DNA of 64,000 nucleotides from Clostridiales bacterium (GTDB lineage: Bacteria > Bacillota > Clostridia > Christensenellales > CAG-138). The stretch's first letter is position 1, and the number at the start of each line of letters is the position of its first letter. Both the position numbers and the translations under genes were made by a program. Below, in pieces: positions 11,947-15,824 of this stretch. The notes beneath the pieces were generated by a model. That model did not search any database. It saw only the letters and a list, made by a program, of their open reading frames with translations, and was not told the origin of the DNA. Location: positions 1-64,000 of the forward strand of contig JAILRE010000050.1 in the NCBI GenBank assembly GCA_024698505.1. The letters run 5' to 3'.

Positions 11947-13473
11947 TTATTCTTCGGCGATCCTTCGGGCAAGCCTGTCGGCGGCTTCGTCGAGGAATCG
12001 AAGGGCGTCCGTCTCGGAACCCGTGTATTCGGTGAACCGCGCCTCGGCTTCAACGGCTCCGTACCCATCCCCGCGGCATCCGGCAATGAGAGCGATCTCG
12101 ACGCCGGCTTTTTTTGCGTGTTCGATTATCCTGCCGACGGCTTTCCCGTTAAGGCTCGTGGAATCGATACGGCCTTCGCCCGTGATAACGAGCGATGCGT
12201 TCCTGAGCTTGCGGTCGAATTCGGCGATATCGAGGAGCGCTTCCGCGCCGCTCATGCATTCCGCGTCAAACAGCGCCATGAGCATGGTTCCAATTCCTCC
12301 TGCGGCGCCGGCACCCTTCTCGAGGCTGACGGGCTTCCCCGCCGCTTCGTCGAGCAGTACGGCCATATTCTTCATGCCTGCTTCAAGCTTTGCAAGCGTT
12401 TCGCCGTCCGCGCCCTTCTGCGGCCCGAAAACGCAAGTTGCGCCGTTCGGTCCGGTCAATGGATTGGATACGTCGCACATGACCTTGATCTTCGCTGATT
12501 TGACCATGGGATCGAGGTTCGTGCGGTCGATTTTTGCTATCCTTTCCATTTCCGAAGCAGTATCTATCTCGTTTCCGTCGTTATCGAGGAAACGGCAGCC
12601 GAGTGCTCTCGCAAGGCCTATCCCGCAGTCGTTGGTGGCTGAACCGCCGAGGCCTACGTAGATCTCCTTCAAGCCCTCGTGCGCGGCGCGCATAATGAGT
12701 TCGCCCGTACCGAAGCTCGTTGCCCTTAGCGGATCGAGCTCCGCACCGCCGCAAAGAGCGAGCCCGCTTGCGAGGGCGGATTCTATTACGGCCCTGATAC
12801 CGTCCGCAACGAGGTAATCGGCCTTTATCTTTTCGCCGTAGGGGCCCGTTACAGTCATGCTGCGGCGCATGGAAAGCACGGCGTTCTCCACGGTTTCAAG
12901 CGTTCCGTCGCCTCCGTCGGCAACGGGAACGGGTATCAGTTCGGTCTCGGGAAGGCGTTTTCTGAGCGCCGCCGAAATATGCTTTATGGCTTCAAGCGAG
13001 GAGATCGTGCCCTTGAACGCATTCGGAGCGATCAGTATATGCCCTTTTCCGGTATAGGCGCGCCTCCGGTCGGCCGTCTCGCTGAATACTATACTGCGGC
13101 CGGATCCGCCTCGGCAAACGCCGTCCATTCCGACCTCTCCGAAGTACTCCATGTCCTCGAAATTCCTGATGACGTTATTTTGAATGAAAGGCTCCTTCGC
13201 CTCGAGCATGGCGTGGATACGCGCGTCCCCATTCAGCTTTGCGTACAGCGCGCGCATCTGCTTTATCCCGCCGTTCATAAACACGACGGTATAGACGCCT
13301 GAGCTGTCCCGAGAGTCGATCGGGCATACGCCTCCGAAGATTTGAAGATCAACTACGTCCTTAACGGTGAGCGCGCCTGTCAGCTCGGAAACGACCGCGC
13401 CGACGTCTTCATCCGAAACGGAAGAACGGTAAAAATCGAATCTTATCCCGAGAGCGAATTTAAGGATGTCCAT
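11947..13473 (-). CDS. Glycerate kinase with about 140 aa N-terminal extension (Dabb-like)
   Basis: Kinase part begins GHILIAPNAFKGTISSLEA, VPVADGGDGTLE, GLGGSATNDCGIGLARALG; extension ends in a Dabb-like segment. Confidence 0.9.
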   Translation of the reverse strand: MDILKFALGIRFDFYRSSVSDEDVGAVVSELTGALTVKDVVDLQIFGGVCPIDSRDSSGVYTVVFMNGGIKQMRALYAKLNGDARIHAMLEAKEPFIQNNVIRNFEDMEYFGEVGMDGVCRGGSGRSIVFSETADRRRAYTGKGHILIAPNAFKGTISSLEAIKHISAALRKRLPETELIPVPVADGGDGTLETVENAVLSMRRSMTVTGPYGEKIKADYLVADGIRAVIESALASGLALCGGAELDPLRATSFGTGELIMRAAHEGLKEIYVGLGGSATNDCGIGLARALGCRFLDNDGNEIDTASEMERIAKIDRTNLDPMVKSAKIKVMCDVSNPLTGPNGATCVFGPQKGADGETLAKLEAGMKNMAVLLDEAAGKPVSLEKGAGAAGGIGTMLMALFDAECMSGAEALLDIAEFDRKLRNASLVITGEGRIDSTSLNGKAVGRIIEHAKKAGVEIALIAGCRGDGYGAVEAEARFTEYTGSETDALRFLDEAADRLARRIAEE

Positions 13474-15824
13474 TACTTTTCGACCTTCCTAACGATATAG
13501 TTGCCGTTTTCGAATAGTACTTCGGCGGAATCGCCGCTTTTGATCTCTCGATTGAGCACGGCGAGACTTACGGCGTCCTCAGCATGAATGGAGATAAGGC
13601 GAGCGATATTCGAGGCGTCCCCTGCGGATGCCGCTGCAATGCCGCAAACAACGCCTTCGTCGAATTCAAGGGAAACGCCTTTTCTAAAAGCCCTGGCCTT
13701 AAGATCGTTCAGTTTGCTCTTAACGATGAGACTCAGCGCGTTTTTATCGAGCTTATTGAATACGATAACCGCGTCAGCAAACGATATGACCGAAGCCGGA
13801 AGCACGGAAGCCGCCGCTTTACGGACGTCTTTCGAGGTATCCGTGCCGCCGTTTGCGAACCCGACAGAGGTATTGCGGGCGTCAGTATCGACGCAAAGGG
13901 CTATCAGACAGTTGCGGAAGCTTACAGTCCTGCCTCTGCCGTCCTCGATCCTGCCGTTCATGAGGATATCAGTCATAAGCGAAAGCACCTTGGCGGAGCA
14001 AAGCTCGGCAGATCCGACAAGTATGACCGAAACGGGATGAAGCCTTACGAATTCGGTGAGCCTTCCGCCCTTTTCAGCGTCCTTATACCCAGACGGCGCG
14101 CCTACAAGCCTTATAACAGCCGAATCGTCGGCAAGCTCGCCGCCATTCAGCCGAATGACCGAGGAATTGAAAACAGTCTCGGCCAATCGTTCGATGAGCG
14201 TCTTCTTCCCCGTGTTTGCGGGGCCTGCAAGTATAAGCGAAGCAAACGGCCTTGCTGCGTCGCCGAGGCCCGCCGCAGATCTTCTCAGTATGGCTGATAT
14301 CTCGTCTATCGCTTCATCCTGGCCGAAAACCTCCGCCTTAAGCTTCGATTCAAGGCGGTTCAGCCTTTCGTAACCGCCGTCTGCGGATACGTCCATCCCC
14401 GTCCTTTCGCTGACTACCGCGGCGATATCCGAAGCGGAAACGCAGGGCGTTTCACCTTTATTGGGATTCTGCTTCAGCTCGTTCCTAAGCTTTTCGGCAA
14501 GCTCGAAATCGCCCTTTTCTGCCGCGCGCTCGATGCGTTTTTCAAGGCTCTTTTCGCTTGCTATGAGCCTTGCGCGCGAGCAGGCCTCGTCCATGAGGTC
14601 GATGGCCTTATCTGGCAGTCTCCTGTCCGCAACGTAACGGATCGAAAGCTCGATCGCGGAGGATATGGCTTCATCGCTTATCCTTACGCCGTGATGCTCC
14701 TCGTAACGGGGTCTTAGCCCCTCAAGTATCGTCCTCGTCTGCTCCTCTGTGGGTTCGCTGACGAGTATGGGCGAGAACCTTCTTTCAAGCGCGGCGTCTT
14801 TTTCGATATAAGTCCTGTATTCGTCTATCGTTGTCGCGCCTATCACGCGAAGCTCGCCCCTTGCCAGAGCAGGCTTCATTATGTTTGCGGCGTCTACGCT
14901 TCCCTCGCCGGAGCCCGCGCCGACGATCGTATGTATCTCGTCGATGAAGAGGATCGTGTTCTCGTCGTTCGAAAGCTCTTCAAGGGCCGTTTTAAGGCGT
15001 TCCTCGAACTCGCCGCGATAGCGCGTCCCGGCGATCATCGCGCCGAGATCCAGCGAGAGTATCCTTTTCTTTTCAAGCGATTCGGGCACTTTTCCCTCCG
15101 CGATCCTTACGGCAAGCCCTTCCGCTATCGCCGATTTGCCGACGCCCGGTTCGCCTATCAGAACGGGGTTGTTCTTCGTTCTGCGGCAGAGCGTCTGCAG
15201 GACGCGGTTGATTTCGGCCTCGCGCCCTATGACAGGGTCTATCCTGCCGAGCGCGGCGAGCCTTGAAAGATTCCTGCAATAGGTATCGAGTATCGGAGTA
15301 CTGCTTTTAAGCCCGTTCCTTTGAACGGGAGCAGGCGCGGCGGGCTTTGGCGATTCGGCGGGTTCCTCGAATCGTTCGGGTTCCTCATAAGGTTTCTCGG
15401 AGCCGCCCTGAAGGAAGGCTCTGAGCGCTTCCCTGTCCCGGCACAGCGTCTCGACGATCCTTGCGCCCGTCGAATCCCTCTCCCTCATTATCGAAAGAAG
15501 GATATGCTCGGTGCCGATGAGATCCGCGCCCATCGATTTGGCTTCGTAAAGGGAGAGCTCCAGTATGCGCTTTACTGTCTGCGTGTTGCCGAAGCTGTCG
15601 GTGAATATGTTCCTTCCCCCGCCTACGACCGTATCGATATAGGGAGCGGCTTCCTCTGCGGTAACGCCGAGCTCAGCGAGCTTTTCGGCCGTTTTATCGC
15701 CGCACTTAATTATCCCCATGAGCAGATGCTCGCTGCCCACGAAGCTGTGACCGAACGATCTTGCCGCCTCCTGCGCGCCGGAAAGGGCGTTGACGGCGGC
15801 GTCGGTATATCTGGATAATTCCAT
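13473..15824 (-). CDS. ClpC-like AAA+ protein with degenerate second ATPase domain
   Basis: Clp_N repeats, intact D1 Walker A (GEPGVGKSA) and Walker B (ILFIDEIHT), UVR-like segment; D2 motifs degenerate. Confidence 0.9.

Follow-up and report, generated by a model that had tools for sequence, protein, structure and literature searches.

The clpC-like gene and its neighbourhood

The window analysed here, a stretch of 64,000 nucleotides from the genome of a Clostridiales bacterium (contig JAILRE010000050.1), carries on its minus strand a gene for a ClpC-like protein with two AAA+ modules, D1 and D2. Its features, placed by alignment unless another source is given, are as follows.

13473-15824, minus strand: clpC-like gene, a D2-degenerate ClpC of 783 amino acids (ORF, alignment, Pfam)
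15405-15824, minus strand: Clp N domain, amino acids 1-140; R5, T7 and E32 of the first phospho-arginine pocket kept
14550-15299, minus strand: D1 AAA+ ring, amino acids 176-425, every catalytic motif intact
15129-15155, minus strand: D1 Walker A, GEPGVGKSA
14928-14954, minus strand: D1 Walker B, ILFIDEIHT
14775-14792, minus strand: D1 arginine-finger motif, ALERRF
14442-14582, minus strand: shortened M domain or linker, 47 amino acids (alignment of relatives)
13476-14366, minus strand: D2 AAA+ ring, putative pseudo-ATPase, amino acids 487-783 (predicted AAA+ fold)
14199-14225, minus strand: degenerate D2 Walker A, GPANTGKKT, with Lys kept and the Mg-binding Thr replaced by Lys
14079-14090, minus strand: D2 pore loop 1, GYKD (canonical GYVG)
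13995-14027, minus strand: degenerate D2 Walker B, with neither Asp nor Glu
13884-13913, minus strand: degenerate D2 sensor 1, Asn replaced by Asp
13857-13865, minus strand: VGF ClpP-docking tripeptide, within TSVGFANGG (13845-13871)
13758-13802, minus strand: lost D2 arginine finger (canonical FRPEFLNRVDE), with SFADAVIVF inside it
13599-13619, minus strand: lost D2 sensor 2, DASNIAR (canonical GARPLRR)

Pfam recognizes two stretches of Clp_N, followed by AAA and AAA_lid_9 in D1 and by AAA_2 and ClpB_D2-small in D2, and this arrangement of two Clp_N repeats and two AAA+ modules follows the order of ClpC. Bacillus subtilis ClpC (PDB 3j3s) aligns to residues 3-781 with an E value of 1e-163. Identity with ClpB was considered and rejected: the protein scores 628 against the NCBIfam ClpB model, which has a cut-off of 1232, and a separate, intact ClpB is encoded at G000:C12. 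In a tree of D1 sequences the degenerate proteins are nested among the ClpCs of the family, away from the ClpB of the same genome. Because its D2 catalytic set is incomplete, the protein is classed as a variant ClpC by descent and not as a canonical one.

The gene order prmA-rsmE-mtaB-HIT-clpC-glycerate kinase is kept in all of the named loci (10/10), in several of which the clpC and glycerate kinase ORFs overlap (TAATG/TGATG). Genes for ClpP and ClpX, both with intact motifs, are adjacent in the window genome, and its ClpX has an MGF loop of its own; HslU and ClpB are also encoded, and a Lon-like ORF is found among the AAA_2 matches. Most relatives have a single ClpP, and the ClpP gap in G012 is probably an assembly gap because ClpX is missing there too.

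The glycerate kinase ORF occupies 11947-13473 on the minus strand (508 amino acids), with its N-terminal part at 13054-13473. A conserved domain of about 130 amino acids (MxILxFALGxRFD...IQNNVIR...) is fused before the kinase, and neither a Pfam match nor a convincing PDB match was found for it. Of 103 family genomes, 73 carry this domain, and some of them encode it as a separate ORF of 131-159 amino acids. This breadth, and its mostly unlinked position with respect to clpC, led us to reject it as a candidate ClpC adaptor.

The two AAA+ rings and the ClpP-docking loop

An earlier note on this DNA had described an unfoldase with an intact D1, a D2 that had lost Walker A, Walker B, sensor 1, the arginine finger and the canonical pore loop, and a retained VGF loop. 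Homologues were fetched from 60 related genomes, and in alignments with B. subtilis ClpC and 43 relatives all of the motif strings that the note quoted were found in the ORF and sat on the canonical motif positions. The D2 losses were borne out and no intact Walker A or Walker B was found in D2; the same alignments ruled out that the motifs had moved or been substituted. The loss of sensor 2 (GAR to DAS) is an addition to the original list. D1 retains Walker A, Walker B, sensor 1, the arginine finger and the pore loop, both in the window protein and in all 12 recovered relatives.

Loss of D2 is common to these 12 relatives, 11 from the same genus and one from a second genus (G023), and the 13 members of this dead-D2 clade all have open frames and intact D1 motifs. 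An assembly error was ruled out by the 12 independent relatives, by the open frames and by synteny that matches where flanks are present. Within the clade, the Asp-Glu pair of the D2 Walker B is kept in no member (0/13), sensor 2 is lost in 13/13 and the arginine finger in 12/13, and sensor 1 has Asp in place of Asn in most members. The Mg-binding Thr of Walker A is replaced in 11/13, and the Lys is kept in 10/13 and is Arg in the other three; the pore-loop Tyr is also kept in 10/13. Among residues with at least 97% identity across 53 intact relatives, 44 of 88 are lost from D2 in the dead clade, compared with 4 of 84 from D1. Inactivation of D2 in the window ClpC and its relatives is, as judged from these residues, well supported. 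Several members do have acidic residues near Walker B, such as SAELCS and NADECS, through which D2 might still hydrolyse ATP; with Asp-Glu at both positions in no member, and with the arginine finger and sensor 2 so widely gone, we give such substitution almost no credence.

The structure prediction that the note had proposed indicates that D2 keeps an AAA+ fold. Most D2 blocks in an AlphaFold2 model made with 11 sequences reach pLDDT 80-94. Among PDB structures, ClpC-ClpP complexes match best. The retained VGF loop was confirmed as well: its GF dipeptide is invariant in 19/19 degenerate ClpCs, comprising 13/13 of the dead clade and 6/6 from genus g10 (below), and the preceding residue is V, L, I or M in 13/13 dead-clade members. 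Mean identity of the loop is only 0.24 in the dead clade, despite the invariant Gly and Phe. Judged from this tripeptide, the window ClpC may bind ClpP.

A single clear change in D1 is common to ClpCs with a degenerate D2. Amino acid 326 (14847-14849, minus strand), just before sensor 1, is Gln in 98% of intact ClpCs; it is Arg or Lys in 13/13 dead-clade members and Arg in five of the six g10 proteins.

Descent and retention of the degenerate gene

The evidence throughout consists of sequence and metagenome-assembled genomes. A profile of the dead D2 was searched across the family (103 genomes) and the order (396 genomes), and gave 381-447 bits in 12 of 13 genomes of the window's own genus and in one genome of another genus, with the next best match at 258; the one genome of the genus without such a match, G009, has a completeness of 53%. 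Across the phylum, a sample of 399 genomes yielded no further genome at E 1e-80. A distant lineage with its own loss of D2 would escape this profile, so the clade is bounded and is not necessarily the only one. Named copies of the dead-D2 ClpC come from Clostridia assemblies, mostly from the rumen or abomasum of ruminants. A second, canonical ClpC, for which the earlier note had suggested a survey, was not found in the window genome (85% complete), where the search returned ClpB, ClpX, HslU and the Lon-like ORF only. Elsewhere, ClpC is absent from several genomes of the family, including genus g2, and G018, G031 and G036 gave no match to ClpC or ClpB with the queries used. In genus g8, locus L143 (G075:C48) has an otherwise canonical ClpC in which a run of N covers D2.

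A sister genus, g10, has D2 in the INTERMEDIATE state, partly degenerate in all six ClpCs found (loci L135-L140). Its D2 rings have a complete Walker A (GxGKT/S) and a pore loop that is mostly GYKD or GYRD; the Walker B Asp is kept in 5/6, with the catalytic Glu replaced by Asn or Asp. The arginine finger is mostly lost and the sensor 2 Arg is kept in G072 only. The other family ClpCs that were read have an intact D2. In the tree, for which only D1 was used and the D2 columns were omitted, the 19 degenerate proteins form one clade (support 100/98), with g10 (100/99) beside g1 and g12 (95/90). Because all 19 fall in a single clade, with g10 as the intermediate, D2 appears to have been inactivated in an ordinary ClpC; a single origin and a stepwise course would account for this most simply.

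The g10 proteins also bear on whether D2 might remain able to bind ATP or ADP but not to hydrolyse it, and so glue the hexamer together in a nucleotide-dependent way, as the D2 ring of NSF does. A complete Walker A in a non-hydrolysing ring is just what g10 displays, together with the Walker B Asp and an Asn or Asp at the catalytic position, and the Walker A Lys that most dead-clade members keep would fit too. The window protein itself lacks such a complete Walker A, its Thr being replaced, and across the dead clade the replaced Thr, the three Arg substitutions and the missing Walker B acids and sensor 2 make a nucleotide-binding glue unlikely.

Divergence differs strongly between the two rings. 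Pairwise identity in D1 is 0.735 in the dead clade and 0.767 in the intact clade, compared with 0.425 and 0.690 in D2. The median omega (Nei-Gojobori, Jukes-Cantor, unsaturated pairs) is 0.125 for D1 and 0.278 for D2, values that are rough, since dS approaches saturation within the genus. Conservation in the dead D2 is highest in the block formed by pore loop 1 and the helix that follows it. An omega of about 0.28, rough as it is, suggests that D2 is under purifying selection. The earlier note had argued for selection and had put forward dN/dS and a look for decay in relatives as checks: retention across the genus, the invariant GF, the intact D1, an omega below 1 and the failure to find a second canonical ClpC all agree with its view.

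Fast divergence of D2 could also mean that the gene is decaying, with D2 lost first and the whole gene to follow. Several genera of the family have no ClpC, and neither do five of the 11 g10 genomes, from which the gene seems dispensable; this calls for some caution. No decay is seen in the window's own genus, however, where the gene occurs in every genome but the incomplete G009, as it does in the second genus. Frames are always open, synteny is fixed and D1 is as conserved as in intact ClpCs, and with the constraint on D2 and its GF dipeptide these observations make decay highly improbable. At the level of sequence, D2 inactivation, its single origin, the retention of the gene and the conservation of GF can be regarded as shown.

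M domain, adaptors and a predicted one-engine protease

Every degenerate D2 is accompanied by a shortened or absent M domain, a feature that goes beyond the earlier observations. The M domain measures 68-73 amino acids in 56/56 complete intact ClpCs and 12-61 amino acids in 19/19 degenerate ones, and it has been completely lost on four separate branches of the degenerate clade. Apparent losses in G034 and G060 were rejected as contig-end truncations, and both were left out of the count. Staphylococcus aureus ClpC without its M domain is a hyperactive, toxic enzyme (PMC5699869). Known adaptor input also seems to be reduced. A search of 61 genomes found MecA in none, and McsB was not found in any g1 genome, in G023 or in G021. 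McsB was detected in 20 relatives, and it adjoins clpC in many of the intact ones; the family search was silent in all control genomes, so that the absences rest on its success in those 20. B. subtilis possesses McsB. Of the phospho-arginine pocket sites, we take those of the second pocket to be R83 and E106 in B. subtilis numbering: R83 is lost in 19/19 and E106 in 16/19 (10/13 in the dead clade), and the window protein has Thr for R83 and keeps E106. In the first pocket, T7 and E32 are kept in 13/13 dead-clade members.

The change of the D2 pore loop from GYVG to GYKD, along with the missing M domain and adaptor input, might suggest a ClpC that no longer threads substrates, and that acts as a regulator or holdase by occupying ClpP in competition with ClpX or by only binding substrates. 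An inert plug would have no need of an intact ATPase, however, and the complete set of D1 motifs together with the pore-loop Tyr kept in most of the clade makes this role very unlikely.

We consider it probable that the gene encodes a ClpCP driven by D1, in which D2 serves as a passive ClpP-docking ring and the known adaptors and brake are missing. A vertically inherited ClpC would have had its D2 turned into a pseudo-ATPase that still assembles as an AAA+ ring and whose [VLIM]GF loops still dock ClpP. D1 would be the sole site of ATP hydrolysis, and substrates would be threaded from D1 through the passive D2 pore into ClpP. Power from D2 would have been lost together with the M-domain brake and the known adaptor input (McsB, MecA and the second phospho-arginine pocket), and the likely outcome would be a weak, adaptor-independent ClpCP for loosely folded substrates. 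From sequence we infer that the ring assembles, that D1 alone threads, that ClpP is activated and that substrates of this class are handled.

Work on other Clp enzymes speaks partly for and partly against a machine of this type. In chlamydial ClpC, a dead NBD2 (D2 Walker B) costs about 30% of the ATPase activity and a dead NBD1 over 70% (PMC10128030), which makes a ClpC driven by D1 plausible. Against it, the main motor of Escherichia coli ClpA is D2, with D1 in an auxiliary role (PMC9663308), and D2 Walker B mutants of ClpE lose most degradation (PMC13125188); a D2-dead machine would therefore be expected to be weak. The weakness of the motor may be what made loss of the brake possible. More tentatively, and with somewhat less than an even chance in our judgement, a two-engine ClpCP may have been converted step by step into a brakeless, adaptor-free one-engine protease, with D2 hydrolysis lost first, nucleotide binding next and the M domain shrinking alongside. 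The replaced catalytic Glu and retained Walker A of g10 would represent the first stage, and the weak motor would render the missing brake tolerable.

How the rings of two-ring Clp unfoldases divide their labour is an open question, one that has been addressed with engineered mutants. Here, intact, intermediate and dead states of D2 occur in related genomes as a natural experiment, and they offer natural reagents for asking if D1 alone can power a ClpP protease and if M-domain repression matters only with two running motors. They also provide a clean test case for a pseudo-ATPase ring retained as a docking platform, in what would be a gut-bacterial 'one-engine' version of a machine usually held to require two. 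No precedent for a natural D2-dead ClpC was found in the literature searched, with most subscription papers outside its coverage.

Canonical ClpCs, such as those of B. subtilis and S. aureus and ClpC1 of Mycobacterium tuberculosis, are full-length homologues that share the N domain, D1, D2 and the VGF loop, and canonical ClpC gives the best PDB matches of the window protein in both sequence and fold. The window protein differs from them in its lost D2 motifs, GYKD pore loop and short M domain, as well as in the loss of the second phospho-arginine pocket and in the lack of detected MecA or McsB. NSF has an active D1 and a non-hydrolysing D2, and like the window ClpC it is a two-ring AAA+ protein in which one ring is catalytically lost. 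PEX1/PEX6 also combines two rings with one dead, although here it is D1 and not D2 that is degenerate (PMC6862443); unlike the window ClpC, NSF and PEX1/PEX6 are eukaryotic classic-clade AAA proteins without protease docking. The plant SMXL proteins, atypical Clp-ATPases, are likewise repurposed from a canonical two-ring chaperone of Clp type, but they are ClpB-like signalling repressors that lack the IGF/L ClpP motif and keep their Walker motifs (PMC9133912). Laboratory Walker B mutants of D2 in ClpC and ClpE similarly combine a dead D2 with a live D1 (PMC10128030, PMC13125188), whereas in the window clade the combination is natural, is fixed across species and is accompanied by loss of the brake and of the remaining D2 motifs.
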